Shown here: positions 1,779-33,898 of the stretch, piece by piece | Layout: each line of letters opens with the position of its first letter | Position numbering within the stretch: position 1 is the stretch's first letter | Virus record (IMG/VR): IMGVR_UViG_3300008107_006662 | Location: 1-43,690 of that record | From: a virus | Reading direction: 5' to 3' (one strand) | Length of the DNA: 43,690 nt | Made by a program: the position numbers and the translations under genes | Notes under the pieces: model-generated | The model's database searches: none | What the model was told of the DNA's origin: nothing | What the model saw: the letters and a program-made list of their open reading frames with translations, nothing else

Positions 1779-1881
1779 ATAGATGTTTTAAGTTAGTTCG
1801 TAAATAAGTATGGTTGCCACTTTTCAAGTACCCCAAAACTATATTAACTAATCATTAACTTTATATCATCATTTTATTAAC

Positions 1882-1907
1882 AAAAAAACCCCCACCGAAG
1901 TGAGGGT
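1882..1907 (-). terminator. Rho-independent terminator with UUCG tetraloop
   Basis: On the minus strand an 8-bp stem (1900-1907 with 1888-1895, one U-G pair) closes a UUCG tetraloop and is followed by seven T. It ends the transcript that comes from the 37-residue gene and the CpeT/NTPase genes, separating them from the receptor gene that starts at 1778. Confidence 0.85.
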
Positions 1908-1927
1908 CTTTTTAATCGCCAATTTTC

Positions 1928-2041
1928 TTACTTTTTTAAAAATCTTTTTACAAAATTTACTAAATAAGGAAGAACAAAATATCCAACTAATGCTCCACCT
2001 AAAAAGTGGATGTTGAATACGAAATCTAAAATTGTTTGCAT
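1928..2041 (-). CDS. Small single-span membrane protein (37 aa)
   Basis: This short ORF begins at the ATG at 2041 and reads MQTILDFVFNIHFLGGALVG..., ending in a basic tail (VKRFLKK). It has one hydrophobic segment (about residues 4-29) with small residues (GGALVG) that could pack in a membrane. It sits immediately before the UUCG terminator, and a motif like the proposed late promoter (ATATTTATT on the minus strand, 2111-2103) lies about 60 bases upstream. Its position between gene and terminator supports it being real. The function is unknown; small membrane peptides of phages may act in lysis or superinfection exclusion, but nothing here shows that. Confidence 0.6.
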   Translation of the reverse strand: MQTILDFVFNIHFLGGALVGYFVLPYLVNFVKRFLKK

Positions 2042-2130
2042 TTTACTTTTCTGTTTTAGTTAATTGTAAATAACTTAATTAATAAAACAGGCGCCATTAG
2101 TAAATAAATATTCTCTAATATTATAAACCT

Positions 2131-2679
2131 CTATTGATTTAGTAGATTTAATATACTATTCACTGTATCTTTATCTACGTCTATCTCAATATATGGAATA
2201 TTATTTTTGTCCAAAGCCGATTTTATCATATTGTCCAACTCAATACTTTGTTCTAATTTTTGATAACGTTCTTTATCATTATAATCAGTATTGAGATTTC
2301 TTTTTAATATGATATTCATATTATCATAATGATTATGAATCTTTAATAACATATCATCAAATTCTTTACCATATAAACAAGATGGATATTCGGCTGAATC
2401 ATTATAGTAATCTTTATAAACCAAACTTAAAAGAATTGGTGAATCAACAACTATGTATTTTACTTTACCATATGATTTTGCTATACCTCTATGTTGATTT
2501 GCTATAACATATAATTGGTCTTTAATTGCTTCACCATTATTATCCCATGCCAATACTTTTGGAAATTCATAAGGACAATCACAACTAATATGTTTTCTTT
2601 TTAATTTATATGTTAATCCAGCAGCAATAGAAGATTTACCAATGCCGGGTCCTCCAAATAGGTTGATGATTTTGCTCAT
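2131..2679 (-). CDS. P-loop NTPase / nucleotide-kinase-like protein (AAA_28 type)
   Basis: The 182-residue protein opens with MSKIINLFGGPGIGKSS, a clean Walker A motif (G9-S16, Lys15), and carries a Walker-B-like strand YIVVDSPILLS further on. The layout resembles small phage kinases of the NadR/AAA_28 group, which phosphorylate nucleotides or nicotinamide riboside; the substrate is not evident. The start codon overlaps the TGA of the upstream CpeT-like gene (ATGA), indicating translational coupling. No signal peptide is present, so it acts in the cytoplasm although both neighbours are envelope proteins. Confidence 0.7.
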   Translation of the reverse strand: MSKIINLFGGPGIGKSSIAAGLTYKLKRKHISCDCPYEFPKVLAWDNNGEAIKDQLYVIANQHRGIAKSYGKVKYIVVDSPILLSLVYKDYYNDSAEYPSCLYGKEFDDMLLKIHNHYDNMNIILKRNLNTDYNDKERYQKLEQSIELDNMIKSALDKNNIPYIEIDVDKDTVNSILNLLNQ

Positions 2680-3293
2680 TTAGAAATCTTTTTATAAATG
2701 TAATGACCTTTACTACTACCCCACACTTGCTTTCCGTTTTTATCCCATCCTCTTTCCCAACTATGTATTTTATTTTTATAGACCATAAAATCAGTAGTAG
2801 TATAAGATGAACCTCTAAAAGTTGCTATACAATTTGTATCATTTGTTTTACCACCATATACACCTTTAAGAATTGGATATGCAACAGTAGTTATTTCTAA
2901 ATCACAACCGGGCTTTAGATAAATATCTTTTGATGTTATTGATTTAATTGATTTTGGATTGAAATAAGAAAAGTTTTCTTGATTTTTTATATAGTAAATT
3001 CTTTGTAGTATTTTACCATCAACGATAGCTAATTGATAAACTCTTTGGCGGTATGGTTTATAATATAAAAACTCACCCTGTTCGGTGTAAACCCAATAGA
3101 TACCATTTTTATCTTTTCTAATTAGTTTTGTGTAAACTCTTACATTATCAAATGTAGTATCTAACTTAGATTGCTCTTCAGTTGAAAATACTCCTGTAAT
3201 TCTTTTTGTGTAATCTCTAAGATTTTTATTTGTCATCTGTCCAAATGATATTGTGGACATGAATACAAATATAATTAATAATAATTTTTTCAT
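2676..3293 (-). CDS. Exported CpeT/CpcT-family protein
   Basis: A Sec signal peptide (MKKLLLIIFVFMSTISFGQ) precedes about 185 residues carrying the landmarks of the CpeT/CpcT (DUF1001) fold: a GVFSTEEQSK start, WVYTEQGEF, PYRQRVYQL, a GCDLEI motif, GKTNDTNC...FRGSSYTTT, and the closing WERGWDKNGKQVWGSSKGHY. In cyanobacteria and cyanophages, CpeT/CpcT proteins are bilin lyases that attach chromophores to phycobiliproteins. Bacteroidota also have exported homologues of unknown role, and the signal peptide suggests this copy is of that kind. It is encoded between a 35-residue ORF and the NTPase in one minus-strand operon driven by the promoter at 3408-3438. A chromophore-lyase function is not implied for this host. 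Confidence 0.8.
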   Translation of the reverse strand: MKKLLLIIFVFMSTISFGQMTNKNLRDYTKRITGVFSTEEQSKLDTTFDNVRVYTKLIRKDKNGIYWVYTEQGEFLYYKPYRQRVYQLAIVDGKILQRIYYIKNQENFSYFNPKSIKSITSKDIYLKPGCDLEITTVAYPILKGVYGGKTNDTNCIATFRGSSYTTTDFMVYKNKIHSWERGWDKNGKQVWGSSKGHYIYKKISK

Positions 3294-3294
3294 A

Positions 3295-3402
3295 TTAAAA
3301 TTTCCCCCATTGTGAGTGTTTGTTTTTATATTCTTCAGCCATTTTAAATCCTAAAAGGATATCACTAAAGAATTTACGGATTTTAGTAAATATTTTTTTC
3401 AT
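3295..3402 (-). CDS. Small basic protein (35 aa)
   Basis: This short ORF reads MKKIFTKIRKFFSDILLGFK followed by a polar tail ending in SQWGKF. The N-terminal half is an amphipathic, basic helix. The stop codon lies one base before the ATG of the CpeT-like gene, so the two are probably co-translated. The ATG lies only five bases after the -7 box of the promoter at 3408-3438, so the mRNA may be leaderless or nearly so. The function is unknown. Its tight placement between promoter and operon supports it being a gene. Confidence 0.6.
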   Translation of the reverse strand: MKKIFTKIRKFFSDILLGFKMAEEYKNKHSQWGKF

Positions 3403-3407
3403 AGTTG

Positions 3408-3438
3408 TAAAGATACGAAATTTTTAGTTAAAAGCAAA
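3408..3438 (-). promoter_or_regulatory. Bacteroidota-type promoter for the CpeT/NTPase operon
   Basis: On the minus strand TTTG (3438-3435) is followed after 19 bases by TATCTTTA (3415-3408), matching the Bacteroidota -33 TTTG / -7 TAnnTTTG pattern. The -33 box overlaps the tail of the terminator for the Oar gene, so one transcript unit ends where the next begins. Confidence 0.6.
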
Positions 3439-3466
3439 ATAAAGGGGATATATTTCAATCCCCCTT
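3437..3466 (-). terminator. Terminator of the Oar-like receptor gene
   Basis: On the minus strand GGGGAT...ATCCCC forms a 6-bp stem (3463-3458 with 3449-3444) with an 8-base loop, followed by TTTATTTT. It lies about 20 bases after the receptor's stop codon. Confidence 0.75.
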
Positions 3467-3488
3467 ATAATTTATTTTTTGTAGAATA

Positions 3489-6400
3489 TTATCTACCAAA
3501 TGTATAGCGAATACCTAACTGAGCTGTCCATACATCGAATACTGAAGAGTTTCTTTGATATGTATCTCTTGCTAAGATTGTACTACCATCTGCAAGTTTT
3601 TGTGTAGATAGAGTGTAAACAGGTTCTCCATTAACAGTTGATTTATAGTTCAACAATGCTGGAGCTGTTGCTCTTTGAGATACACCCCAATTGTCATTTA
3701 ACATATTTCCAAAATTAAGGATATCAAAACGAATTTGGAAAGCGTTTCTTTCACCTTTAATTTTAACGAAAACATCCTGAGCAATTGATAGGTCAAATCT
3801 ATGTAGGTATGGAAGAATACTTCCGTTTCTTTCTGCATATTGACCTCTACGAGTTGAAAGATAATCATCTTGCGAAATGAATGCATCAAATGCTGCTTGT
3901 TGTTGAGCCGCAGTAAATGTCACACCACTTGTTGTGAAATCTTCGAACTTAATATCTGAACCTTTTGTTGGTACAAAAATTAATTCATTATCTCTAACTC
4001 TATCTCCGTTCATATCGCCTGCTATGAAATAAGAAAATGGATTTGATTGTTGTCCTACATATCCTAAAGTAAATGTAGTAGCACCACCATATTTCTTACC
4101 ATAATCCAATCGGTATCCTAGCAAACCTACAAAACGATTCTTAACTAAGAAATCAGAAATTGAAAGGTCTAAGTTATTGTTACCATTTACTGAACGAGCA
4201 GATTGCCAGCTACCACTTGCGATAGAACCAGCACTCATATAGTCTTGAGCATTTGCGGTAGTCCAAGCAAATGAACCCCACATACCATTAGAAATTGGTT
4301 TTTCTAATTTCAATGTAAGTGAGTTGTTAAATGCGCCATTTTTTGTTGTAAGAACGGCAGCCATAGAAACATTATCATTTACTCTTACACCAGCATCAGT
4401 ACCTGCAAATCTTACTCTTTTGTCAACACCTGAAAAGTTTCCAACTGAAGCATCTAAGTTTGCGTTATAATAATGAACTGCGTTAATAGTTTTATTAAAT
4501 AGAACTTCCGCACTTGCTACTAAACCTAACCAAGGTAACTTTTGGTCAACTGCCAAATTGTTTTTCCAAACTTGTGGCATTTTGTAGTTAGGGTCAGTTA
4601 ATGCTAAATCAAATGTTGAAGGTAATGTTGGAGTTGATGGTACAAAATATTGATTAGGATTTGCGGTGAATCCATATTGTGATGCCGCTGAACCACTTAC
4701 ATCAATAAATCCTGTCAACACACCATTGTTACCAATTTGATTAGATAAGAATACATAAGGAGGTCTACCGGTAAAGATACCACTACCACCTCTGATTTGT
4801 GTTTTCTTTTCACCCTTTACATCATAGTTAAATCCGAAACGAGGTTCAAATAGAACTTGTGTTTTAGGCATTGTACCTGTATTCCATTTTTCACCACCTG
4901 CAAAAGTCATAGCGGTGATTACTTTGTTTTCCAATGCTGTATTTTCAAAATCAATAATGTTTGTTCTCACACCAAAAGTTAATTTTAAATCTTTCGTTGC
5001 ATTGTATTCATCCTGCAAATAGAAATCCAAACGATTTGTTTTCAACACTTGCATTGGTTCTTCACCGCCTGGTAATGCTGAATAACGTAGTTGGAATCTA
5101 GAAGGTGCTAACGTAGAAGGTCTACCACCATTAGCAATTGATTGTCTTGCTGCTGCATAAAAATCATTCAAGCTATTAAAGATGTAAACACCATTAGAAG
5201 CTGGGTAGAATAGGTTGTTAGATTGATACTTTTGGAAATTGAAACCACCAACCAAAGTATGTTTTTCAAAATACTTAGTAATGTTGTTAGTAACATTAAA
5301 TGTCCAATAATCTAATTTATTACCAGGAGTAAACGGGTCCATGCCTACGGATGTGTAAGTTGCTGAACCTTCTCTGATATCAATAGTTGGGAACATAGGA
5401 CTCATATAAGCTCTATCTTCAATTTGCTTATCATAAGAAACGATTAAGTTGTTATGAAGTGTGTTAGAGATTTTAGAGTTCAATTCCAATACTGCTGAAC
5501 GAGTGTTGTCCTGAATAATATAACCACTATTCTGAAAACTCATTGCGTTGAATTGAGTTGTTCTATTACCAGCACCAGCTGATTGAGAGTTTGAAATATT
5601 AATCTCCGCAGATGAATTGTGGTGAACATAACGAGCAGTTAATTTGTTCTTATCGTTAATATTCCAATCAGTTCTAATCAAAAACTTTTTAGATGTGTTA
5701 TCATTAGAATATCCTTCAAACGGACCGGTTTCATAACCCAAACTATCTTTCATAAATTTAGATAGCTTAACCATATCAGCGTACTTAACACGGCTGATTT
5801 GTGAACCAGTCAATGGAGAACCATCCGAAATCCAAGTTGTACCAGGTTCGGTTCTTACGATATCTTCATAGTTACCAAAGATAAACAATTTGTTTTTAAT
5901 AATTGGTGCACCCAAACGGAAACCTTGTACTTTTTCATTAAATTGTGAAGCAGTAACTGGTACACCATAAGCTGAATTACCAACATACGTTGAACTATTA
6001 TTTCTTTGTGTTTGATAAACCGAACCCTCTACTTTATTAGTACCTGAACGAGTTACGGCATTAATACCAGCACCCGTAAAACCACTTTGACGAATATCAA
6101 ATGGAGCAACGTTTACTTGCAATTGGTCAATCGCATCTAATGAAATTGCCGAAGCACCAGTTCTACCACCGGCTTGTGCGGATGAGCCCAAACCAAAGTT
6201 GTTATTAAACTGAGAACCATCAATTGTAAAGTTATTCAAACGAGAGTCTTGTGCTCCGAATGAACGACCATCACCAAATGGATTGTACTTAGTAATCCCA
6301 TCAATAGTTCTAGCACCAGTGATTGGAATTGTACTTAATTCTCTACGTGAAAATTGTTGAGTTGCTCCAGTTCTTTCTTTAGAAAAAGTCCCGTTTTTTT

Positions 6401-6770
6401 GAGCGGATACAACAACTTCTGTCAAAGCAGTTGCTTCTTCAATCATCAAAAACTCAACATTGGTAGAGTTACCTAATTGAGTGTTGATTTCTTTTAGTTC
6501 TGCTTTTTTGTAACCAACGAATCTTGCATGAAGTGTGTAAGGTCCGCCCGGTCTAACTGCTGGAATCGTAAACACACCAGACTTATTGGTAACAGACGTA
6601 TACTGTGTACCCGTTGGTTCGTGTGTTACGTGAACAGTTGCGCCAGGCAGTAATTCACCCTTCTGGTCCTTCACAATACCAGAAATGGTCGAGGTTGTAA
6701 TTTGCGCAAACCCCGAAATCGCAGTCATTACCATAAGTAATAACACTAATCCTGCTTTTTTCATACGCAT
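3489..6770 (-). CDS. Oar-like TonB-dependent outer-membrane receptor, complete
   Basis: The 1093-residue protein starts with a Sec signal peptide (about residues 1-22), then a carboxypeptidase-regulatory-like domain (about 25-110, with TISGIVKDQKGELLPGATV). A plug follows (about 115-250, with RTIDGITKYNPFGDGRSFGA and LNNFTIDGSQFNNNFGLGS), then a long barrel ending in LGIRYTFGR, close to the terminal aromatic signature of outer-membrane proteins. The layout and length are those of Oar/SusC-like receptors of Bacteroidota. The start could be the first or third codon (ATGCGTATG). The region is visibly richer in G+C than its neighbours (30 of 60 bases at 6541-6600 and 26 of 60 at 5101-5160 by hand count, against 17 of 60 at 541-600 in the other receptor), suggesting later acquisition from a host. 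A terminator-like hairpin sits upstream in the leader. Confidence 0.92.
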   Translation of the reverse strand: MRMKKAGLVLLLMVMTAISGFAQITTSTISGIVKDQKGELLPGATVHVTHEPTGTQYTSVTNKSGVFTIPAVRPGGPYTLHARFVGYKKAELKEINTQLGNSTNVEFLMIEEATALTEVVVSAQKNGTFSKERTGATQQFSRRELSTIPITGARTIDGITKYNPFGDGRSFGAQDSRLNNFTIDGSQFNNNFGLGSSAQAGGRTGASAISLDAIDQLQVNVAPFDIRQSGFTGAGINAVTRSGTNKVEGSVYQTQRNNSSTYVGNSAYGVPVTASQFNEKVQGFRLGAPIIKNKLFIFGNYEDIVRTEPGTTWISDGSPLTGSQISRVKYADMVKLSKFMKDSLGYETGPFEGYSNDNTSKKFLIRTDWNINDKNKLTARYVHHNSSAEINISNSQSAGAGNRTTQFNAMSFQNSGYIIQDNTRSAVLELNSKISNTLHNNLIVSYDKQIEDRAYMSPMFPTIDIREGSATYTSVGMDPFTPGNKLDYWTFNVTNNITKYFEKHTLVGGFNFQKYQSNNLFYPASNGVYIFNSLNDFYAAARQSIANGGRPSTLAPSRFQLRYSALPGGEEPMQVLKTNRLDFYLQDEYNATKDLKLTFGVRTNIIDFENTALENKVITAMTFAGGEKWNTGTMPKTQVLFEPRFGFNYDVKGEKKTQIRGGSGIFTGRPPYVFLSNQIGNNGVLTGFIDVSGSAASQYGFTANPNQYFVPSTPTLPSTFDLALTDPNYKMPQVWKNNLAVDQKLPWLGLVASAEVLFNKTINAVHYYNANLDASVGNFSGVDKRVRFAGTDAGVRVNDNVSMAAVLTTKNGAFNNSLTLKLEKPISNGMWGSFAWTTANAQDYMSAGSIASGSWQSARSVNGNNNLDLSISDFLVKNRFVGLLGYRLDYGKKYGGATTFTLGYVGQQSNPFSYFIAGDMNGDRVRDNELIFVPTKGSDIKFEDFTTSGVTFTAAQQQAAFDAFISQDDYLSTRRGQYAERNGSILPYLHRFDLSIAQDVFVKIKGERNAFQIRFDILNFGNMLNDNWGVSQRATAPALLNYKSTVNGEPVYTLSTQKLADGSTILARDTYQRNSSVFDVWTAQLGIRYTFGR

Positions 6771-15541: not shown

Positions 15542-16840
15542 ATGAATTGGTTAAGAGTATTAGTTGGATTTTCGGCAATCCTTGTTGCTGGATGTGCGGC
15601 GTACTTTTCCGTAACCGGATTGGGTGTACTATTTGCTGGAGCATCTGCTTCGGTAATGGTAATGGCTGGTTCATTAGAATTGGCTAAATTAGTAGCAGCA
15701 ACTTATCTAAAGCAAGAGTGGGATAACCTTAAAGGATTTAACAAATGGTATTTAACAATATCAGTTGGAACTTTAATGCTTATCACATCAGCAGGTATAT
15801 TTGGATATCTATCTAATGCATTCCAACAACAAAACTTAGAACTACAAAAAGTTGAAAGAGATATAGCAGTATATCAAACCCAAATTACTAAAAATGATGC
15901 GGAGATAGCTCGATATACAACTCAATTAACTAACCAACAAAATATTCGTAACTCACAGGAGGCTAACTTATCCAAACAAATTGATAAGGATAAATCCACT
16001 TCAAGAGTTTCACAAATGATTAGAACTGCTGATAAAGAAATAGCATCAGTATCTAAACGTATTGATGAATTGACAATACAAAACAATGTAGCATTAGATT
16101 CAATTAATAATATTAAAAATAACAACATTGAATTAGAAAGAGAAGTGGGTGGATTCAGATTCGTAGCTGAAGCATTTAATGTCCCACTTAATGATGTTGT
16201 AAAATTCTTTATCCTTATAATCGTATTAGTATTTGACCCATTAGCAGTAGCATTGATTATTGCATTTAATGGATTAATAATGAGACGTAAAGAAGAAGAT
16301 GGTATAGATGTTATTATAGATGATGGTGGTATTTCGGATATCCTTAAAAAAGAAAAGGAATACGAAGTGTATGGCGATAAAGAAAAACAAAGAGAAGCTA
16401 TTATAGAAATGATGAAAGGTGATGAGGAATTGGGATTATATGATGAACCAAACGAAGCATTAGTAGAAGCGGCTCAACAATATGAAGCCGAAAAAAAAAA
16501 CGAAATTGATTCCACTCCAACGAATGTGGCAGAAAATCAAATAGATGAAGAACTGTTTGAGCTAAAGCAAGATGTATCACGCAGACCTATTGATTTAGAT
16601 GGTGATGGTGCTATTGATGGCTGGGATACTGATGGTGATGGGTTAATTGATGAAATAGCACCGAATTCATCAAATAGAAAGCTATACGCTAAAAACACTA
16701 AACCATACTACGCTAACCAAGAATTTAATTGGAGTGACCGTAGTAAGTGGATAAATGACCAAAATGCAGTAAATTACTGGTTTACCCACATAAGAAAGAA
16801 CGAAAGATACCCTACGGATTTCGAATCAAAAACATATTAA
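15542..16840 (+). CDS. Multi-span membrane protein with coiled coil and calcium-loop repeats (432 aa)
   Basis: Three N-terminal membrane segments (about residues 4-24, 28-55 and 72-92) are followed by a coiled coil (about 95-200), one more hydrophobic segment (FFILIIVLVFDPLAVALII, about 222-248), and a long acidic soluble tail. In the tail, residues 351-372 contain two Asp-rich loops (DLDGDGAIDGWDTDGDGLID) like thrombospondin-3/EF-hand calcium sites. The N-terminal part resembles a membrane protein seen in several large environmental phages. It is not exported by signal peptide. The same type of loop appears in the protein at 27459. A role at the membrane during assembly or lysis is possible. 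Confidence 0.78.
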   Translation: MNWLRVLVGFSAILVAGCAAYFSVTGLGVLFAGASASVMVMAGSLELAKLVAATYLKQEWDNLKGFNKWYLTISVGTLMLITSAGIFGYLSNAFQQQNLELQKVERDIAVYQTQITKNDAEIARYTTQLTNQQNIRNSQEANLSKQIDKDKSTSRVSQMIRTADKEIASVSKRIDELTIQNNVALDSINNIKNNNIELEREVGGFRFVAEAFNVPLNDVVKFFILIIVLVFDPLAVALIIAFNGLIMRRKEEDGIDVIIDDGGISDILKKEKEYEVYGDKEKQREAIIEMMKGDEELGLYDEPNEALVEAAQQYEAEKKNEIDSTPTNVAENQIDEELFELKQDVSRRPIDLDGDGAIDGWDTDGDGLIDEIAPNSSNRKLYAKNTKPYYANQEFNWSDRSKWINDQNAVNYWFTHIRKNERYPTDFESKTY

Positions 16841-23500: not shown

Positions 23501-24232
23501 ATGCCTAGAAAAAAGAAAAGTAAACAATACTTTACATTAGATACAGAACAAGCTATTATTGAATATAATAAAACAAAAGACCCATTAAAAAGAAATAAAA
23601 TATATGTGGAAAGCATACAATATCCTTTTGAAAAGTTAGCTGAAAATATTCTAAATACATTTAAGTTTTCCTATTTTGATGTACCTAAACAGGACGTTCA
23701 AATGGAAGTTGTTTCTACATTGATTGAAAAAATTCATATGTTTAAAGAAGGAAAGGGTAAAGCCTTTTCTTATTTTAGTATCGTTGCAAAAAACCATTTA
23801 ATTCTTAAAAATAATGGTAACTACAAACGATTTAAAAAAACATCACTACTTTCAGAAATGCCTGAAAGTTGGAATCCACCAGATGATTTTGAACATGTTG
23901 AGTTAGGTAAGGAGTATAACGAATTTAAAGATTTGATGCTAATCTATTGGGACAAAAATCTTACAAAGGTTTTTACCAAAAAAAGAGATATACAAATAGC
24001 CGATGCGGTATTAGAATTATTCCGTAGAAGTCAATACATTGAAAACTTTAATAAGAAACATTTATATCTTCTAATTAGAGAAATGACAGATTGTAAAACA
24101 CATTATATTACAAAAGTAGTTAATGTAATGAAGGAGCATCAAAGAAGAATATTAAATGAATATTTGGATTATGGTTCTGTTACCAACCAAAATGATGATT
24201 TTTGGGAAGAAACATATTTATATGAGGAATAA
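23501..24232 (+). CDS. T4 gp55-like late-transcription sigma factor
   Basis: The 243-residue protein matches the phage-late sigma family: a basic start (MPRKKKSKQYF), then NKIYVESIQYPFEKLAENIL, NTFKFSYFDVPKQDVQMEVV and KGKAFSYFSIVAKNHLILKN, the region-2-like segment of gp55 relatives that contacts the core polymerase and the -10 element. The C-terminal part (residues 155-225) is helical and may contact the sliding clamp coactivator system. In T4, gp55 directs the host RNA polymerase to TATAAATA late promoters. Here the repeated ATATTTATA motif is the natural candidate target. Confidence 0.85.
   Translation: MPRKKKSKQYFTLDTEQAIIEYNKTKDPLKRNKIYVESIQYPFEKLAENILNTFKFSYFDVPKQDVQMEVVSTLIEKIHMFKEGKGKAFSYFSIVAKNHLILKNNGNYKRFKKTSLLSEMPESWNPPDDFEHVELGKEYNEFKDLMLIYWDKNLTKVFTKKRDIQIADAVLELFRRSQYIENFNKKHLYLLIREMTDCKTHYITKVVNVMKEHQRRILNEYLDYGSVTNQNDDFWEETYLYEE
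24214..24222 (+). promoter_or_regulatory. ATATTTATA motif, candidate late promoter within the sigma gene
   Basis: This copy lies inside the last codons of the gp55-like gene and 21 bases before the ATG at 24244, matching the spacing elsewhere. Confidence 0.4.
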
Positions 24233-24710: not shown

Positions 24711-25196
24711 ATGATGAAGAACTTATTGGTTTTTTTATTTGCATTACTATACATAAACGTAACTCAAGCACAAACCCAAATTTTTGTTGGTGATGTAACC
24801 AATGGTATTAAGATTGGGCCTATGATTGGTAATAAAAACCTTATATTAGGTCTGAGAAATATTGCAGAGGAAGCTTTTATGGATAAGGGTTTTGATATCG
24901 TTGCAAAAAACGATTCAACCATGAAACTTAATATGGAGATTGTGTATTTCGATATACTATCCACAAACGCTGGTGTTAGCGTATTTCACAAAACAAATGC
25001 TGAAACCATTATCCGAATAAAAGGGTATTTGGTAAAAGATGGTAAGAAGGTTAAAGAATATTTAGCAACCGGAAAATCATCGGAAATTTCTACGTCAACT
25101 ATGGTTATAGATGAAGGTGGTGGTATAAATCAACAAGCTGCCCGTTCTGCTCTTAAAAAAACAATTATAGAACTAATTGACAAACTAACCATATGA
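24711..25196 (+). CDS. Exported YajG/CsgG-like periplasmic protein (161 aa)
   Basis: A Sec signal peptide (MMKNLLVFLFALLYINVTQAQ) is followed by one alpha/beta domain resembling the YajG or curli-assembly CsgG fold: IGPMIGNKNLILGLRNIAEE, MDKGFDIVAKNDSTMKLNME, AETIIRIKGYLVKDGKK and the C-terminal helix QQAARSALKKTIIELIDKL. There is no lipobox. It overlaps the T9SS protein gene (ATGA), so the two are co-translated. It may assist surface export; a curli-like role is inferred from its shape and its neighbours. Confidence 0.65.
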   Translation: MMKNLLVFLFALLYINVTQAQTQIFVGDVTNGIKIGPMIGNKNLILGLRNIAEEAFMDKGFDIVAKNDSTMKLNMEIVYFDILSTNAGVSVFHKTNAETIIRIKGYLVKDGKKVKEYLATGKSSEISTSTMVIDEGGGINQQAARSALKKTIIELIDKLTI

Positions 25197-27103
25197 AAAA
25201 ACTATTATTATTAGCTGGATTACTAATCTCCAGCTTTTCGATTTTCGCTCAAAACCCATCTATTGGACATTTTCAGCAATTGCAAACTGTAAAAAGAGGT
25301 GATACCTTAGAAGTAGCTTGGTACTATCAACCAGTGGCAAATACGGATATCCGTTCTTTCCAAGTTGATTTTCAGTACAAAAAACAACTTTTAACACACA
25401 TCTCTACTACGGTAGCATCTACCTACAATTCACAAACTCCGTATGTGGATTACAAACAATTTGATAACTACAAATATAATTCATATTCAAATGGAGCGTA
25501 CAATTACACAACTGATACCAGTTGGACTGTTGCTAGAAACTATTTAATTTTAGCTAGTGGTAATGCTATATCATCAAATTCTTATATTATTTACAACAAA
25601 TATAAAATTAATGATGTACAATCAAACTTCGCTTCAGATTCGGTAACTGTAAACTGGGCTAGATTATTTAAAGTTGATGGTACATCTATTGGTGATAACG
25701 TTGCTAATTTAACAAATAAAAAGTTAGCAATATATCTTAAAGGTAACTTTACAATATCTGGTAAGGTTTGGTTGGCTGCAAATATGACGGCTAAACCAAC
25801 TGTAGTTGCAACAGAATTTAATAGTGGTTTGATTGCATCTAGCATTGTTGTAAATAATGATGGAACATACACTTTACCAAATATTGAGGAACAAACAAAA
25901 TATAAAATTAGTGTATTATTCCCACAAGATAGTTTAACCAATATTAGAGATTATGCGGTAACTATAACCGATGGTACTAAAACTTATGATGAATTTACAA
26001 AAACTGATGTAAGCCAACAATATAGTAAATTGTATCTTAAATCAGGTTTAGCTTACTTACAAGCAGATATAAATAAAACAGGAACATTAGATGGTGGTGA
26101 TGCGTATGGTATATACGCTTCGGTTTCTGGGTTGAAAAAAATAGATACGGCTAATTTAATAAGTGTATTCCATGCGGCTGAATATGACTCTTTAGTTTTA
26201 GGACAAAATCAATGGACTACATGGGCAAATTACATAAACAGAGGTGAGTTTGTAGTGGATAGTGTACAAACATCTAACCTTACTGTAAATTTAAAATATA
26301 TGATTTTGGGTGATGTTAATAGAAGTCATTCATCTCCTGTATTTAATCAATCGGGTACTGAAGTATTAGCATACAATATTATAGGTAATATGGATGTTAA
26401 TATTCCAGACACTTATACCGCAGCTGGTCAACCATTATTCGTACCATTCAATGTTAGTTTTGCAGACAACAAACAAAATGCAGGACTTCAATTTGAAATG
26501 AAATATGACCCAACCAAAGTTAAATTTGAAGAAATCGTATCAAATATACAAGGCCCTTGGTTACAATATGTAACACATGATGAGCAAAATGGTATTGTTA
26601 GATTTGGTGGTATGAACAACCAAAATAGTGGATTTTTAACTGGTAATTCTACACCATTTAAACTTAAATTTTCACCGATTGGAAATAATGATATAACATC
26701 AAATATATATGTTAGAAGATTAATGGATGCATCTGATGTAAATGGTGACCCATTTGCAATAACATTAGCATCTGATAGAGTTACTATTAGTAATAAAGCA
26801 ATGCCTGGCTTTGTTAATGGTGGTATGATGAAAGAAATTACGGCTAAGGTTTACCCAAACCCAAGCAACGGTATGTTTGAGTTAGTAGTAGATTTCCCAG
26901 AACCAAATATGTTCGTTGTAGCTAATGTTTATGATTTTGATGGTAATTTGGTTAAACGAATTGGTAAAATTCAAGCAGAACAATACTTATTGACAGCACA
27001 AACACGTGTTGAAATGCAGGGAGCAAGACCTGGCGGTGGTTATTTTGTATCGTTACAATCTCCAAATGGTAAAGCAGTTACGAAGAAATTATTAATATTA
27101 TAA
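25193..27103 (+). CDS. Surface protein with cohesin- and dockerin-like domains and T9SS sorting domain
   Basis: The 636-residue protein has a Sec signal (MKKLLLLAGLLISSFSIFAQ), a first beta domain (about 21-190), a CarboxypepD-like module (about 190-255), a dockerin-like calcium loop region (ADINKTGTLDGGDAYGIYA, Asp292; LGDVNRSHSS, Asp374), a cohesin-like domain (about 395-535, FVPFNVSFADNKQNAGLQFE) and a C-terminal sorting domain (from about 548, AKVYPNPSNGMFELVV, ending VTKKLLIL). The last is the type IX secretion signal of Bacteroidota, which sends proteins to the cell surface through the host PorSS. It is translated with the preceding YajG-like gene. Its sequence is AT-rich like the phage genes. 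Confidence 0.85.
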   Translation: MKKLLLLAGLLISSFSIFAQNPSIGHFQQLQTVKRGDTLEVAWYYQPVANTDIRSFQVDFQYKKQLLTHISTTVASTYNSQTPYVDYKQFDNYKYNSYSNGAYNYTTDTSWTVARNYLILASGNAISSNSYIIYNKYKINDVQSNFASDSVTVNWARLFKVDGTSIGDNVANLTNKKLAIYLKGNFTISGKVWLAANMTAKPTVVATEFNSGLIASSIVVNNDGTYTLPNIEEQTKYKISVLFPQDSLTNIRDYAVTITDGTKTYDEFTKTDVSQQYSKLYLKSGLAYLQADINKTGTLDGGDAYGIYASVSGLKKIDTANLISVFHAAEYDSLVLGQNQWTTWANYINRGEFVVDSVQTSNLTVNLKYMILGDVNRSHSSPVFNQSGTEVLAYNIIGNMDVNIPDTYTAAGQPLFVPFNVSFADNKQNAGLQFEMKYDPTKVKFEEIVSNIQGPWLQYVTHDEQNGIVRFGGMNNQNSGFLTGNSTPFKLKFSPIGNNDITSNIYVRRLMDASDVNGDPFAITLASDRVTISNKAMPGFVNGGMMKEITAKVYPNPSNGMFELVVDFPEPNMFVVANVYDFDGNLVKRIGKIQAEQYLLTAQTRVEMQGARPGGGYFVSLQSPNGKAVTKKLLIL

Positions 27104-27114
27104 AATAAAATTTT

Positions 27115-27432
27115 ATGTCTGAAGAAGTACAAGAAAATGATGGAACTTTGTCTGGTTTAAAAAAGACTATTATTGGTGTAGTAACAACCGCAGTGATGGG
27201 TTTAGGAACTTGGGGAGTAACTCAAATTACAGGCGGTGGTGATGAACCAGCACCTGTTCAACAAGCAGCTCCAGTAATCAACATTACCAACTCCAACCAA
27301 CAAGCTCAACAATCTGGTGGAACTAAAGTAATTGAAAGAGTAATAGAAAAACCAGCAGCTCAACCAGCACCGGCTCCAAAGCCTAAGAAAAAAGAAGGTG
27401 ATGAGTTCAAAGAAGAAGCACCTAAGTGGTAA
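27115..27432 (+). CDS. Small membrane protein with Pro/Ala-rich tail (105 aa)
   Basis: An acidic start is followed by one weak membrane segment (TIIGVVTTAVMGLGTWGVTQI, residues 18-38), then a Gln/Asn-rich linker and a Pro/Ala/Lys-rich tail (KPAAQPAPAPKPKKK). Spacing and small size suit a holin or holin-associated peptide, since two more small membrane proteins follow. No family is recognised. The tail is cytoplasmic or periplasmic depending on orientation. Confidence 0.65.
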   Translation: MSEEVQENDGTLSGLKKTIIGVVTTAVMGLGTWGVTQITGGGDEPAPVQQAAPVINITNSNQQAQQSGGTKVIERVIEKPAAQPAPAPKPKKKEGDEFKEEAPKW

Positions 27433-27458: not shown

Positions 27459-28079
27459 ATGGCAGAACAACCAAGTGGGTTTAAAGACCTATTGAACAAA
27501 ATGATGGCCAGAAGATGGTACATCACTGCATTAGTATTGGGTGGATTTATGTTAATAATGGGCGGTATGTTTGCGGCCATTTTTAACAAATCCGATATAG
27601 CAGGAGAGTGGAAAGAACTTCTACTCCTTTTATTAGGAGCCTTTATCGGTTCTTATGGTAAAATCATTGACTATTGGTTTAGGGATACTGATAAGGATAA
27701 AATGTTAGTTCAGAAAATGGATGAAGAAGATGGTACATCAATGAGTAACACAGCTGATATGCCTGTAACTCCACCAAATAATACTCCATTAATTCCAGAA
27801 GCATTTACCGCAGCAATTTCAAATGCAGCATCTCAACCAAAAGAAGTTAATTCTCAAATTACTGATGCAGTTACTACTGAAGCTCCAAAAGCTAAAGTTG
27901 GTGTTGAAATTGATGAAGATGGTGATGGTGTAATGGATGGACTAGACTTAGATGGTGATGGTGATATCGATGAATACTTTACACATAGACAATGTGAGCA
28001 CGTTTGGGGCGATTTGGATGGCAATGGTACAGAAGAGTGTATTAAATGCGGAAAAATCAAAGACGATGAAGAAGGATAA
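27459..28079 (+). CDS. Holin-like membrane protein with calcium loop and zinc-ribbon tail (206 aa)
   Basis: Two membrane segments near the start (ITALVLGGFMLIMGGMFAAI, about 23-43; ELLLLLLGAFIGSYGKIIDY, about 55-74) resemble phage holins. The middle is a linker, then residues 152-178 contain an Asp-rich loop (DEDGDGVMDGLDLDGDGDID) like a thrombospondin-3/EF-hand site. The end carries a small zinc-ribbon-like element (CEH at 179-181, CIKC at 194-197). The same Asp-rich loop type is in the membrane protein at 15542. The tail suggests a regulated membrane protein. The next small ORF overlaps its end by 14 bases. Confidence 0.7.
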   Translation: MAEQPSGFKDLLNKMMARRWYITALVLGGFMLIMGGMFAAIFNKSDIAGEWKELLLLLLGAFIGSYGKIIDYWFRDTDKDKMLVQKMDEEDGTSMSNTADMPVTPPNNTPLIPEAFTAAISNAASQPKEVNSQITDAVTTEAPKAKVGVEIDEDGDGVMDGLDLDGDGDIDEYFTHRQCEHVWGDLDGNGTEECIKCGKIKDDEEG

Positions 28080-28187: not shown

Positions 28188-28448
28188 ATGGGATTCTGGA
28201 AAGATTTATTTAGTGATGATAACCAAATTAACGAAAAATCAGTAGTTGGATTTGGTGCATTTGTAATGATGGTAATAACATTGGCAACTGATTTAGTTAC
28301 CGGAGTATTGGGTAGAGAGATGCCAATTCACGAATTTGTATTTGATGGATTTATGGTAATAACATTAGGTTCATTTGGTATAGCATCGGTTGATAAATTC
28401 ATCAACGCTAAAAAGGGAAAAGAAAATTCTGAAGAAGAATTAGGATAA
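28188..28448 (+). CDS. Small two-span holin-like protein (86 aa)
   Basis: MGFWKDLFSDDNQINEKSVV is followed by two membrane spans (GFGAFVMMVITLATDLVTGV and FDGFMVITLGSFGIASVDKF) and a charged tail (INAKKGKENSEEELG), the pattern of a class II-type holin. The start at 28188 is chosen because an upstream start at 28122 would add a Cys-rich out-of-context extension inside the previous ORF. A strong terminator follows immediately. Together with 27115 and 27459 this makes a probable holin cluster. Confidence 0.75.
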   Translation: MGFWKDLFSDDNQINEKSVVGFGAFVMMVITLATDLVTGVLGREMPIHEFVFDGFMVITLGSFGIASVDKFINAKKGKENSEEELG

Positions 28449-28497: not shown

Positions 28498-29214
28498 ATG
28501 AAAAAACTATTATTTTTATTTACATTAATTTCAACACTTAATCTTAGTGCTCAAACTATTGGTACTACAAAAACCGAACAATATAAAGCTTCGTTTGAAA
28601 CACAAATTGATATTTCTCAATATATGGATTATGATGGACCACAAATTCCAATTCAAATCTTAAAATGTGGTATATCCGATGAAATGTACGAACTATATCC
28701 TGAACTAAAAGAGAAAAGAGTTGGATTGGGTGTTGCAAACATTTCAATGGAATATTTAGAAAATCTTAATAGATTTAAATTTACTGAAGATAAAACTGAA
28801 ATTAAAAATAGAATGGTTAAGCAATTCCAAGCATCTCAAGCTGGAATAGCTGAAAATCCATTAGATGGTAGAGGTAAAATTAACTTAGCAAAATACTTTG
28901 TAACAATAGAGTGCTACGATTATTCAATATCAGAAGATGAGACGGTAAATCTTAAAGATGGTGTTAAAAATATGATGGTAACTCGTATTGGTTTACAGGT
29001 TCGTTTTACTGATGCGGAAACTGGTGTAGTATTTGGTGCTAGTGGGTTGGGTGAAGCAACAACAACTAGAGAACTAACATTACTTTCAGATGCTACTGTA
29101 GACCCAGTTAAATTTAATCAATCAACCATTTCTATCGCCACAAAGAAAGCATTGGATATTGCTTGTGCAAGAATTCTACAAAGAATGGTAACCAAAGGTA
29201 TATTTACTAAGTAA
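28498..29214 (+). CDS. Exported CsgG/curli-assembly-like protein (238 aa)
   Basis: A Sec signal peptide (MKKLLFLFTLISTLNLSAQ) without lipobox cysteine precedes a domain of the CsgG type: RVGLGVANISMEYLENLNRF, KYFVTIECYDYSISEDETVN, VTRIGLQVRFTDAETGVVFG, then a C-terminal helix (KALDIACARILQRMVTKGI). CsgG-like proteins form or help form outer-membrane channels that secrete curli subunits. Pore formation cannot be read from this sequence, and the lack of a lipobox distinguishes it from E. coli CsgG. It is followed by a Gly/Ser/Asn-rich secreted protein that could be its client. Confidence 0.72.
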   Translation: MKKLLFLFTLISTLNLSAQTIGTTKTEQYKASFETQIDISQYMDYDGPQIPIQILKCGISDEMYELYPELKEKRVGLGVANISMEYLENLNRFKFTEDKTEIKNRMVKQFQASQAGIAENPLDGRGKINLAKYFVTIECYDYSISEDETVNLKDGVKNMMVTRIGLQVRFTDAETGVVFGASGLGEATTTRELTLLSDATVDPVKFNQSTISIATKKALDIACARILQRMVTKGIFTK

Positions 29215-29251: not shown

Positions 29252-30787
29252 ATGAAAAAATGGCTAGTAACTATTCTAACAATTGTTACATTTTTAATAT
29301 CTAATAAGGTATCTGGCCAAATATTGTCTTATACGTTTGTTGACCCTTGTACACAAGCGGTGACCGTATTTAGTATTCCTGCTCAAGGGACGGTAGTTTT
29401 CTTTTTAAATCAATCAAGAAGTTTTACTCCAGCTGATGTTGCAAGTGGCGCATTAGCATCTTGGATAAATCAAGTTTATGCGGCTTATAGATTGGTAGCA
29501 CCTTGTGGACAACAACAAGGACAGGTAACGCAAAACCAAATAACAACGCAAATAATCAGTAGTACAGTTCAAAGTGTGGTTGGTAGTATAATGTCATCTG
29601 CACAATCAGCATCAGCTGGTATGAATGTTAATTCCAGCTCATCTGGTAACAATAACAAATCGGGTAATCAAAATAATAGTGGTGGTTCTACCGCTGGTTC
29701 AAATAATAATGGTGGAAATAATACAACATCAAGTGGGGGTAATTCTGGGAGCAATTCTGGAGGTTCTGGGAGCAATTCTGGGGGTTCTACTAATAATGGT
29801 AGTGGTGGTTCAACTGGTAGTTCTGGAGGTTCTGGGGCAGGTTCTGGGGGTTCTGGAAGCGGTTCTAGTGGGGGTGGAACTACGACAGGGGGTTCTACAA
29901 CCAATACTGGTGGTTCTACCGGTTCAAGTGGAGGTGGGAGTACTTCGAGTGGTGGTTCAACAACTGGTAGTACAACACAAAGCGGTCAAAGTAGTGGTGA
30001 AAAAAAGGCTGAAGAAGTTGCTGCAACAACAACGATGAACGTTGATGCTCATAATGGTGGTGGTGAATCCGGAGGTGAATCTAGCAGTAGTGGCGGTGGT
30101 GGTAAAGGTGGAGGTAAATCCAGCTCAAAATCATCCAACTCAAATCCTATGTTAGTACAATCAGATTTGACAACTGCTCAAAATTTAGATAAAAGTTTTA
30201 CACCAATTTTAAATTTAGGTATATCACAAGCATCAATGACTGGAGCATCAAGTTGGGGAGTAACATCTATGACTTGGTTAAACTTTAGACAGTTTGCTTT
30301 GAGCGCAAGATATACAAGTATGATATTTAATAAAACTGGGACAGTAAAATATATAAGTAATTTTAATTTAACAGGTGTGTATTCTTATGGAAACATTTTA
30401 GGTTTTGTTGGTTATAGTGGTATATTGAATGCTGGAAAATATGGAGTTACTGGTTTTAATGCAAGTGTAGCAGCTACATTAATATCAGAAGATAAATCTT
30501 CATTCTTTTCACCATCATTAACCGCATTTTATACAAAACCATTTATGGTTGGTAAAAAGCTTACAATTTCACCGGAGTTATATGTTATATCAACACCATT
30601 AATATATTCATCTAAAGAAGAGGTTTTTCAAACGGATAGAACATTTAGTGGATTTATAGGAAGCGGGTTTGATTATCAAATTTCTAAAAGATTTAAATTT
30701 AATATAAATTATAAGGCAAATTTAAGTACAAACCCTGATTTCCCAATATTATCATTTTTCTTAATTGGAAGTAAGGTAAATTTATAA
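29252..30787 (+). CDS. Exported Gly/Ser/Asn-rich protein with barrel-like C-terminus (511 aa)
   Basis: A signal peptide (about residues 1-22) is followed by a small domain with two Cys (YTFVDPCTQ and RLVAPCGQQ). Residues about 129-293 are a low-complexity segment of Gly, Ser, Asn and Thr (for example SGGNSGSNSGGSGSNSGGST), and the last 215 residues are a regular alternation of aromatic and polar residues (from about 300) typical of an outer-membrane beta barrel, ending ILSFFLIGSKVNL. A CsgG-like gene lies just upstream. This may be an outer-membrane anchored adhesin or fibre protein. The repetitive DNA is likely to vary in length between strains. Confidence 0.72.
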   Translation: MKKWLVTILTIVTFLISNKVSGQILSYTFVDPCTQAVTVFSIPAQGTVVFFLNQSRSFTPADVASGALASWINQVYAAYRLVAPCGQQQGQVTQNQITTQIISSTVQSVVGSIMSSAQSASAGMNVNSSSSGNNNKSGNQNNSGGSTAGSNNNGGNNTTSSGGNSGSNSGGSGSNSGGSTNNGSGGSTGSSGGSGAGSGGSGSGSSGGGTTTGGSTTNTGGSTGSSGGGSTSSGGSTTGSTTQSGQSSGEKKAEEVAATTTMNVDAHNGGGESGGESSSSGGGGKGGGKSSSKSSNSNPMLVQSDLTTAQNLDKSFTPILNLGISQASMTGASSWGVTSMTWLNFRQFALSARYTSMIFNKTGTVKYISNFNLTGVYSYGNILGFVGYSGILNAGKYGVTGFNASVAATLISEDKSSFFSPSLTAFYTKPFMVGKKLTISPELYVISTPLIYSSKEEVFQTDRTFSGFIGSGFDYQISKRFKFNINYKANLSTNPDFPILSFFLIGSKVNL

Positions 30788-33087
30788 TGAAAAAGTTATT
30801 AATAATATTATTGAGTTTTTTACCATATTTGGTATTTTCTCAAGCAACAACGGTATCATTAGGTACGTCAAGCACAGGTGTACTATCACTAAGTCACAAT
30901 ACGTGGACAAAGGTTGACCCTAACGTAACCATAACGGCAAATGGTAACATAACTGGATTTAGAGTTCAAATATCACAAGCATATACAAGTGGTGCTAGTG
31001 GTGACCAATTAAGGTCAACTGTAACATTACCTTCTGGTATTAGTGTATCTACATTTAACACAACAACGGGTATTTTAATTTTTAATGGTACAACAACCGC
31101 ATCTAATTGGCAAACTATATTAAGAGGTGTTGAATTTAAATCCACTTCTTCAAGTTGTTATGCATTACAAAGAAGAGTAACATTTGTTGCTGGTACGGTA
31201 TTCTACAATCCACTAACTGAACATTTTTACGAATATGTTGCGGGAAGTACAACTTGGACGAATGCAAAAACATCAGCAGAAAATCGTTCTTATTTTGGTA
31301 GAGTCGGTTATTTGGCAACAATGTCATCCGAAGCGGAAAATAACTTTGTTTGGAAATTGATGTCCTCTGATGCGTGGTTTGGTGCTTCCGATGAAGTATC
31401 TGCTGTAAATACGGCAAAAGGAAGTACCGCTTTTGCATCACAATCAGCTGTTGAACAAAAATGGCATTGGGTAACCGGTCCTGAAAAGGGTACACAATTT
31501 TCAAATAGTTCAACAGCGGTAACAGGTCAATATTCAAAATGGGCTGGTGGTGAACCAAACAATGCGGGAGGTGAACACTATGGACAATTCTATTCATCTA
31601 ATAACGGTCAATGGAATGATTTACCAAATGTAAATTTAGGTGGATATGTTTGTGAATATGGGGATATGCCAGGAGATATTACATCAAGCACAACCATATT
31701 AACAAAGGATATTGAGATTAGTGGAGCATCAAGTGGTTACCTAAGTGGCGGTGATATAAATGTATGTTCTGGTAGTAATAGTACCACTTTAACGCTCAAT
31801 GGATATACAGGTAGTGTTGTTAGATGGGAATCTTCATTTGATAACTTCTTTACGGCTGGTACTACAATATCAAGTACATCTTCAAGTATCACTGTTAGTA
31901 ACCTTACAAAAACAACTTATTATAGAGCAATTGTAAACTCATCAAGTCCTCAAAGTTGTTCTAATTTACCAACTTCAAGTGTTTTCTTATCAGTTAAACC
32001 AACAAAATCGGGAAGTATATTTGCAGTTAACAATTCAATTTGTGCTGGTGGACAAGTTGAACTAACACTTTCAGGTCAGCAAGGAAATGTAAATAAATGG
32101 CAACGTTCAACTGATAATGTGAATTGGACTGATATATCAAATACTACAACAAGTCTTACTGAAACATTAAGTAACGCAGGAACTTATTATTATAGAGTTC
32201 AAGTTCAAACTCCAAATTGTGGTAGTGCAGTTAACTCTGATTCAAAAACAATTACCGTAACATCTGGAACACCTCCAGTTGGTGGTTCTGTTTCTTCAGC
32301 AAATCATTCAACCACAAGTAACTCTGGGACACTTACATTAAGTGGATATAGTGGAACTATTGTAAAATGGCAACGTTCAACCAATGAGGGGGTTACATGG
32401 ACTGATATTACAAATACAAACACAACGTATTCATACACTAATATTACAGCAAAAACATTATTTAGAGTACAATTACAAAGTGGTACTTGTGGATTTGCAT
32501 ATTCTACCGCTGGTATTGTTAATATAGTTTATACAATATCCGGTACAATCACATTACCAGCATCAACAACATTATCGCCTATGATAACAATAAGTTTATA
32601 TAAAGTTGTTGGTAGTACAGAAACTTTAGTAAAAACCGATACATTAAACTCAAATGGTACATATTCATTTGATGTACCTGAAAGTGGTATTAATTATAAA
32701 ATAGTACCATCTTTGGTAATGCAAGGTATAACTTTGGATGATTTCAATCCTGCTTTTAATGAGGTTATGAATATGAATACACCAAATAACACAACATCTG
32801 GATTACATTTAAATTCTGGTAAAAAATGGAAAGCAGCTGATATTAGTAGAAATGGATTCTTAGATTTAGGAGATGCTTTCCTAATAGCAGCTCATATAAC
32901 TAATTTAGTACCCATCAATAAAGTACTATGGTTTACTTCAGCAAATTATGATTCGTTAACACAATCAAACTATGGTTCAGTAAATGCGGTTGAATCATTT
33001 TCATTCAGTTCTGTTAGTTCTAGTGTTACCCAAAACATAAAATATTGTATATTGGGTGATGTAAATCTTTCACATTCTTCAAACTAA
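30787..33087 (+). CDS. C-type-lectin/Ig-like/dockerin-like exported protein (766 aa)
   Basis: After a Sec signal (MKKLLIILLSFLPYLVFSQ) comes a beta-sandwich region (20-130), then a C-type-lectin-like domain (about 135-295) carrying GGEPNNAGGEHYGQF (Glu256-Pro257-Asn258) and QWNDLP (Trp276-Asn277-Asp278), the canonical calcium/sugar motifs EPN and WND. Three Ig-like repeats follow (each with a KWQRST-type motif: VVRWESS, NKWQRST, VKWQRST). The end is a dockerin-like module (AADISRNGFLDLGDAFLIAA, Asp685) and stops at GDVNLSHSSN, exactly where the related protein at 25193 continues with a cohesin domain and T9SS tail. No sorting domain is present, so it may be truncated or exported differently. 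The start overlaps the previous stop (TAATG). Confidence 0.82.
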   Translation: MKKLLIILLSFLPYLVFSQATTVSLGTSSTGVLSLSHNTWTKVDPNVTITANGNITGFRVQISQAYTSGASGDQLRSTVTLPSGISVSTFNTTTGILIFNGTTTASNWQTILRGVEFKSTSSSCYALQRRVTFVAGTVFYNPLTEHFYEYVAGSTTWTNAKTSAENRSYFGRVGYLATMSSEAENNFVWKLMSSDAWFGASDEVSAVNTAKGSTAFASQSAVEQKWHWVTGPEKGTQFSNSSTAVTGQYSKWAGGEPNNAGGEHYGQFYSSNNGQWNDLPNVNLGGYVCEYGDMPGDITSSTTILTKDIEISGASSGYLSGGDINVCSGSNSTTLTLNGYTGSVVRWESSFDNFFTAGTTISSTSSSITVSNLTKTTYYRAIVNSSSPQSCSNLPTSSVFLSVKPTKSGSIFAVNNSICAGGQVELTLSGQQGNVNKWQRSTDNVNWTDISNTTTSLTETLSNAGTYYYRVQVQTPNCGSAVNSDSKTITVTSGTPPVGGSVSSANHSTTSNSGTLTLSGYSGTIVKWQRSTNEGVTWTDITNTNTTYSYTNITAKTLFRVQLQSGTCGFAYSTAGIVNIVYTISGTITLPASTTLSPMITISLYKVVGSTETLVKTDTLNSNGTYSFDVPESGINYKIVPSLVMQGITLDDFNPAFNEVMNMNTPNNTTSGLHLNSGKKWKAADISRNGFLDLGDAFLIAAHITNLVPINKVLWFTSANYDSLTQSNYGSVNAVESFSFSSVSSSVTQNIKYCILGDVNLSHSSN

Positions 33088-33142: not shown

Positions 33143-33898
33143 ATGAAAAACAAATTACAACAAGAAGTTCAACAAAATGTTGAAAAAGTAAAAGAATTTA
33201 AAAATAATAATAAAAAGCTCCTTTTGGTGGCTGGTATCTTATTATTAGGTTTTTTATTGTGGGGAACGTTTTCAAACAAATATCATAAGAAAGAAATCAA
33301 AGCCTTAGAGAAGGAAATAGAATTGGTTCAGGAAAAGTTTGAAGAAGCGGTAATTGAAAAGGAAAGATTGAGAGATTCTTCTGAAGTATATGAAACAATA
33401 GCTGCACAAGCAGAATTAGAAGCTGATAAATTTAGAGATAAGGCTGCAAGAGAAAAGAAAGATAAAGAAACTGCGTTAGCAGCTTTGAAGAATTTACCAA
33501 AGGATGAAATTGATACATTTTTGGCTAAAAGATATGTAAATGTTGAAAAAGCAGATGTTAATTTAGATTTGGATAAAAACGTAGGTAATGCAATAGTGGT
33601 TGAGTTAGTGGAAAAAGACCATTTAGTAGGTCAATTAGCAACTTCTGATAGTTTAAACACCACACTAACAGGTCAAGTTAGTTCTTTAAAAACATCTTTA
33701 GACTTTTCAAAATCTGCACTAATTTCAGCAGATTCGGCGATTGCACATAAAACGAAACAATTTGAGTTACAACAACAGGTAAGTGATTTACTTAAAAAAG
33801 ACCTAAAAACTGCAAAAAACAAAGCATTTTGGAATAAATTTAAAGGTGCTGGTGTTGGTTTACTTATTGGGTTTGGTGTTGGTATATTAGCTAAATAA
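33143..33898 (+). CDS. Inner-spanin-like membrane protein with long coiled coil (251 aa)
   Basis: A charged N-terminus is followed by one membrane span (LLLVAGILLLGFLLWGTFS, about residues 26-44) and a long coiled coil rich in Lys and Glu (KALEKEIELVQEKFEEAVIE and on). A Gly-rich hydrophobic end (GAGVGLLIGFGVGILAK) may form a second membrane element. This shape resembles an inner-membrane spanin, which links inner and outer membrane to complete lysis, but no outer-membrane partner lipoprotein was seen next to it. A structural tail role is an alternative. Confidence 0.6.
   Translation: MKNKLQQEVQQNVEKVKEFKNNNKKLLLVAGILLLGFLLWGTFSNKYHKKEIKALEKEIELVQEKFEEAVIEKERLRDSSEVYETIAAQAELEADKFRDKAAREKKDKETALAALKNLPKDEIDTFLAKRYVNVEKADVNLDLDKNVGNAIVVELVEKDHLVGQLATSDSLNTTLTGQVSSLKTSLDFSKSALISADSAIAHKTKQFELQQQVSDLLKKDLKTAKNKAFWNKFKGAGVGLLIGFGVGILAK

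Follow-up and report, generated by a model that had tools for sequence, protein, structure and literature searches.

A predicted type IX secretion cargo with cohesin modules in a conserved export cassette of Bacteroidota phages, alternating with a lipoprotein-associated form

The window (the whole stretch of DNA analysed here, 43,690 bases, which is an entire IMG/VR virus record) contains an intact open reading frame of 636 aa (25193..27103, + strand) for a cohesin scaffold that ends in a predicted type A sorting domain of the type IX secretion system (T9SS). The gene belongs to the phage, and the signal peptide and tail of its product make it likely that this scaffold is a cargo of the host's T9SS, so that a protein of the virus would probably be displayed on the surface of the infected cell. 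A conserved and selected sorting domain on a phage gene makes use of the host T9SS the natural reading; the presence of that system in the host is assumed because of the sorting domain itself and of the Flavobacterium host of the cultured relative vB_FspM_immuto.

From its N-terminus the cargo protein consists of a signal peptide, a first cohesin, a transthyretin-like module, a dockerin-like module, a second cohesin and the T9SS type A sorting domain, all encoded on the + strand. The Sec signal peptide MKKLLLLAGLLISSFSIFAQ (25193..25252, residues 1-20) was recognised by inspection and has no lipobox; other members of the cargo family possess a similar N-terminus, and no lipobox occurs in the 113 cargo family ORFs in which it was looked for. 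Cohesin 1 (25247..25744, residues 19-184) superimposes on 2vo8 with Z 13.7 and an rmsd of 2.7 over 133 residues, and cohesin 2 (26384..26773, residues 398-527) on 1aoh with Z 13.3 and an rmsd of 2.4 over 127 residues. Cohesin 2 is furthermore matched by PF00963 (E 5.1e-5, 23.9 bits against a cut-off of 24.1). The cohesin-like modules pointed out by the sequence-only reading are borne out by this profile match and by the two jelly-roll folds (Z ~13 each), even in an AlphaFold model of moderate overall quality (pLDDT 59), in which the individual domains are recognisable. The CarboxypepD_reg or transthyretin-like module (25748..25918, residues 186-242) is matched weakly by PF13620, with E 0.23 in the window copy and matches in 7 of 19 family members (best 2.7e-4).

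The dockerin-like module (26030..26338, residues 280-382, with the end GDVNRSHSS) contains one canonical F-hand calcium loop at residues 292-303 (D292-I-N-K-T-G-T-L-D-G-G-D303) and a degenerate second loop. The profile PF00404 (Dockerin_1) does not match the window cargo, and an assignment as dockerin by profile was dropped in favour of the name "dockerin-like"; AlphaFold confidence is low across the module. A related module lies at residues 582-765 of the product of gene 30787, and the region common to both proteins (aligned at 186-381) has 32% identity (E 2e-16). What had been proposed as a dockerin-like module from the letters alone is thus retained at motif level, from the calcium-loop motif and its sharing with gene 30787, and is left unmatched by the profile.

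The predicted sorting domain (26825..27100, residues 545-636) is matched by the full profile PF18962 (Por_Secre_tail) at residues 553-635, with E 1.6e-5 and 25.5 bits in a search with the whole protein, just below the cut-off of 27 bits, and with 31 bits, above the cut-off, in a six-frame search. Because the window score is so near to the cut-off, the profile test was made family-wide. PF18962 matches all 19 aligned cargo members (best 1.5e-8), and TIGR04183 (T9SS type A) matches 14 of these 19 (best 2e-9) and misses the window's own copy. Of 80 related records only L013 (87% identical) has a tail that does not reach the PF18962 cut-off; the other 79 score above it. The site lies at the C-terminus of an open frame of normal length and occurs once per record, save for one record with an extra weak match. 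Residues 545-636 superimpose on the C-terminal domain of PorU (6za2), which serves as a T9SS signal in PorU, with Z 10.2 and an rmsd of 2.4 A over 89 residues; in the model they adopt the Ig-like fold known from the C-terminal domains of PorU and RgpB. Between the window and L013 dN/dS amounts to 0.09 in the tail, as against 0.62 in the linker preceding it and 0.12 over the gene in its entirety, a contrast indicating that the tail is kept by purifying selection. The tail is accordingly described here as a conserved, selected, predicted T9SS sorting domain. For T9SS cargo speak two independent profile libraries and the fold; against it stand the window tail's score near the Pfam cut-off, the TIGR04183 miss and the unmatched Dockerin_1 profile. 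The C-terminal sorting domain claimed by the sequence-only reading is confirmed by PF18962 in window and family and by the PorU fold, while the type A profile it proposed to search succeeds in most family members and fails on the window copy.

The survey of other phages that the same reading had suggested finds the tail in nearly all of the 80 related records and in the isolate immuto. When a phage collection was searched with the sorting-domain consensus, matches were confined to the isolates of immuto, three uncultured phages of very large size and two fragments from faeces, some of these matches being weak. The weak matches in the very large phages are located in LR756501/LR756503 (735 kb, ~654254-654475) and LR745206 (635 kb, ~298444), with E 0.004-0.09.

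Baseplate wedge proteins, endolysins, PhoH and a helicase were recognised in the window with PHROGs, a search in which the cassette genes found no match. The cargo gene is linked to phage sequence in independent records, namely contig G012, the isolate immuto and phage-size contigs. Relatives of the cargo are present on at least 104 viral contigs and reach phage-size contigs of up to 321 kb, relatives of the cargo or of its CsgG-like partner on phage-size contigs including some of 233-326 kb, and no relative of the cargo was found in the GTDB genome collection. The claim of a phage gene is upheld by these relatives and by the baseplate, endolysin and helicase neighbours. An origin of the region from a bacterial chromosome, an objection the sequence-only reading had raised against itself, or from mis-assembly of the contig has hardly any probability left: the genes for outer-membrane receptors in 3-6770, at the left end, do look bacterial, but G012 matches nearly all of 5399-43689 at 80-87% identity, immuto and phage-size contigs carry the same cassette, and no GTDB genome matches. 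Chromosomal island and chimera are rejected for the cassette, and 3-1778 alone stays uncorroborated.

The left end of the window holds several features of its own. Gene 3489-6770 (- strand) encodes a full-length outer-membrane beta-barrel of 1093 aa of TonB-receptor/Oar-like type (PF25183, 6e-48, with CarboxypepD_reg). Its relatives occur in 35 viral contigs, most at 69-86% identity, with a copy in G012, and several of them adjoin a phage helicase homologous to gene 7544. It seems to be conserved among phages as one of their own genes, and this would be unusual; nothing specific on phage-borne receptors was found in the literature searched. A second TonB-dependent receptor (3-1778, - strand; Plug, OMP_b-brl_3) is truncated by the contig end, and no homologue was seen in the related loci examined, so that its phage origin is uncorroborated. 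Gene 2676-3293 (- strand) encodes a CpeT/CpcT family protein (PF06206, 2e-31) with a signal peptide. CpeT is a bilin lyase of cyanophages and is unexpected in the present setting.

The cargo gene stands in a cassette of genes 24711, 25193, 27115, 27459, 28188, 28498, 29252 and 30787 (all + strand), of which 27459 and 28188 are frequent partners, and the gene order is kept in most of the 33 viral contigs retrieved with the cargo. Gene 24711 (24711..25196) encodes a small exported protein of 161 aa with weak Lipoprotein_16 similarity (E 0.025) and overlaps the cargo start; its homologue adjoins the cargo in 33 viral loci and is also detected in immuto. It is followed behind the cargo by a conserved small protein of 105 aa with one transmembrane segment (27115..27432; gp016 in immuto), a transmembrane protein with DxDGDG repeats (27459..28079) and a small membrane protein, holin-like by size and hydrophobicity (28188..28448). 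The repeat DxDGDGxxDxxDxDGDGxID is common to two otherwise different membrane proteins of the window, 15542-16840 and 27459-28079. Gene 29252 (29252..30787) encodes an exported protein with a conserved N-terminus, a Gly/Ser/Asn-rich middle and a C-terminus that looks like a beta-barrel, its signal peptide and composition having been judged by inspection; homologues are present in the cassettes, and tblastn against the phage collection gave no match. Gene 30787 (30787..33087) encodes an exported C-type-lectin-like protein (PF00059, E 0.0026) that lacks a sorting domain and carries the dockerin-like module described above, with a C-terminal end conserved in the family.

By inspection, signal peptides are also present on the products of 24711, 28498, 29252 and 30787. 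The scaffold might instead decorate virions as a tail or head adhesin, through cohesin-dockerin contacts made after export or release. Typical adhesion modules, lectin and cohesin, are present and the cassette is situated upstream of baseplate genes, but members of the cargo family carry signal peptides, unlike virion proteins assembled in the cytoplasm, and a sorting domain would serve no point on a virion protein; we regard a virion role as very improbable.

A candidate phage promoter element, ATATTTATA (24214..24222, + strand), heads the cassette, 30 nt ahead of gene 24244. All of its 9 copies are on the + strand and none is on the - strand; seven precede a gene start by at most 90 nt, with sites including 7527, 10231, 14709, 24214, 33113, 35052 and 38919. 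The T4 late-promoter motif TATAAATA was rejected as a candidate, its frequency being at chance when both strands are counted, whereas its reverse complement ATATTTATA is strongly strand-biased. A further motif, TATATTTG, is found shortly before several + strand genes (14023, 16871, 12599, 22601) and resembles the -7 element of Bacteroidota promoters; these sites are possibly host-type early promoters, and 14 copies are present on the opposite strand too.

The product of gene 28498 (28498..29214, + strand, 238 aa) is an exported protein recognised by fold. Its AlphaFold model (pLDDT 72) has CsgG as top PDB match, with a best Foldseek E of 6e-7, and superimposes on CsgG with Z ~10 over up to 175 residues at an rmsd of 4-5; of the related folds PelC, LptE and HpaA-like score slightly below CsgG, and Cj1090c above. 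PF03783 matches neither this protein at E 10 nor any of 17 family members, and a PDB sequence search gave no useful match, for which reasons identity with CsgG by sequence was dropped and the fold relied on instead. The signal peptide MKKLLFLFTLISTLNLSAQ contains no Cys and hence no lipobox. Relatives of 28498 are present on at least 504 viral contigs.

Sister phages gathered by searching with the CsgG-like protein have CsgG copies mostly 81-92% identical to that of the window, and mostly no sorting domain. Their cargo homologue ends just after the cohesin, and at 24 loci the tail-less cohesin gene is followed, after 0-3 nt, by a gene of ~125 codons for a small lipoprotein (e.g. 5451-5834 in L097, 6387-6764 in L111, 6787 in L050 and 6308 in L062). 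Among 164 contigs, each counted once, the tail is present in 85 and the lipoprotein in 61; no contig combines the two, and 18 have neither, several of these being incomplete; the exclusion of tail and lipoprotein has a Fisher value of 4e-29, which ignores shared ancestry. In the CsgG tree the tail is spread across basal groups and no fewer than 4 changes of label are required, with the window and L013 forming a tail-bearing pair amid lipoprotein phages. Immuto is labelled as "no CTD" in this tree, the custom profile having missed its diverged tail, which PF18962 finds. T9SS export is thus inessential to the cassette, as close relatives do without a sorting domain.

The domain of these lipoproteins is reminiscent of a sorting domain's second half, with weak PF18962 matches in 11 of 50 sister-phage records (14.8-19.5 bits), all of them below the cut-off. 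This swap may mean that the Ig-like domain matters more than T9SS: the tail would be an Ig-like contact domain in a periplasmic or outer-membrane complex together with the CsgG-like pore, with no T9SS involved and with PF18962 reporting a shared fold. Several observations make this improbable. A PNP-type motif is present in the tails of all 113 cargo ORFs and absent from nearly all lipoproteins (86 of 91), the tail is always at the extreme C-terminus and, in most aligned members, is recognised by TIGR04183, and the profile comparison between lipoprotein and tail is weak (probability 39%), too weak for homology to be claimed. We retain secretion of the tailed form by T9SS as the likely reading. 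In Bacteroidota lipoproteins, acidic residues soon after the cysteine are the signal for surface export. Several of the phage lipoproteins possess acidic residues in this place. Tentatively, and a little short of an even chance, we propose that the scaffold of this CsgG-fold, cohesin and lectin cassette of widespread Bacteroidota phages is brought to the surface by two interchangeable routes, fusion to a T9SS tail or a separate lipoprotein, and that the route was switched several times, perhaps to fit the export machines of the hosts.

Flavobacterium phage vB_FspM_immuto (NC_055915) carries the cassette as gp013-gp018, with gp014-gp018 homologous to the window genes and in the same order. Unlike in the window, the lectin gene is situated upstream and the cargo is split into two genes, each with its own signal peptide: gp014 comprises the cohesin-like cargo start and the dockerin-like end, gp015 the second cohesin and the sorting domain, which is diverged and nevertheless matched by PF18962. 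Such fusion or fission suggests that the two halves work together. The annotation of immuto mentions only a "cohesin domain-containing protein".

From sequence and fold the following course may be proposed. The signal peptide would direct Sec export of the cargo to the periplasm, where the host T9SS would recognise the type A tail, move the folded protein across the outer membrane and remove the tail, leaving the cargo attached or released. Outside the cell the two cohesins would offer docking sites, the likeliest partner being the dockerin-like end of the 30787 product, and a small lectin-bearing assembly would form on the infected cell; to this docking we give a nearly even chance. The cargo would act with the remaining exported proteins that the cassette encodes, among them the CsgG-fold protein, beside the lysis genes, which comprise a spanin-like gene at 33143 and endolysins at 36737 and 37916. 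As to purpose, one guess is that the surface of the infected cell is altered before lysis, in superinfection exclusion, adhesion or help with lysis, which we hold to be rather doubtful. A further proposal concerns this purpose and leaves the T9SS route as it is: the exported pore, barrel and scaffold would weaken the outer membrane in concert with the holin-like, spanin-like and endolysin genes. Proximity to these genes and the lysis role proposed for CsgGF of methylophage Melnitz (PMC9004378) speak for it; the CsgG pore is small, however, and lysis has no need of a cohesin scaffold with an export tail, and we consider it unlikely.

The sequence-only reading took display by the host's type IX machine for an undescribed phage strategy, and here it has to be corrected: Bellas et al. 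2020 (PMC7468147) reported three T9SS cargo genes of Cryophage and proposed hijacking of the host system, and T9SS sorting-domain proteins of gut phages are noted by de Jonge et al. 2019 (PMC6949934). As in the window, the Cryophage genes of Bacteroidetes phages end in T9SS type A sorting domains, but they number three, are variable (endoglucanase, GH39, PA14) and belong to flexible islands, whereas the records studied here each have a single conserved cohesin scaffold, which is non-enzymatic and has its fixed place in the cassette of many phages. Sorting-domain proteins occur likewise in gut phage cluster 2, one of them fused to another domain; the cluster differs in having BACON repeats in place of cohesin, and no CsgG cassette is described in the text consulted. 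Pelagimyophages and methylophage Melnitz carry CsgG/CsgF clusters (PMC7029224, PMC9004378), and curli-type genes form a set in a predicted marine Bacteroidetes T4-like virus (PMC7198788). These resemble the window in that a phage CsgG-type protein is clustered with exported or hypothetical proteins; the window CsgG is distinguished by recognition from fold only, by the lack of a lipobox and by travelling with a cohesin/T9SS or cohesin/lipoprotein pair, and no CsgF was identified in the window cassette. Cellulosome scaffoldins (CipA, ScaA) share the arrangement of cohesins and dockerin-like modules on neighbouring secreted proteins, while the window system is phage-encoded, has no enzymes, bears a T9SS tail and leaves the dockerin profile unmatched.

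In the literature searched, with few subscription papers and preprints, neither the cohesin scaffold nor its link to the CsgG cassette nor the alternation of tail and lipoprotein was found described, and nothing specific on phage cohesin or dockerin turned up. The exported-protein cassette (CsgG-fold protein, lectin with a shared dockerin-like module, lysis genes nearby) and its clean alternation appear to be unreported; the CsgG-like cassette and the lipoprotein alternative are additions to the sequence-only reading.

If true, these findings would mean that phages make conserved use of a host secretion machine to remodel the infected cell's surface, and a sorting domain could hint at which phages infect T9SS-bearing hosts. 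They also offer a starting point for explaining the CsgG-type genes of aquatic phages, which may be part of an envelope complex with a surface scaffold of its own. With immuto and its host Flavobacterium sp. LMO8 a cultured system is at hand in which phage-driven surface display is testable.
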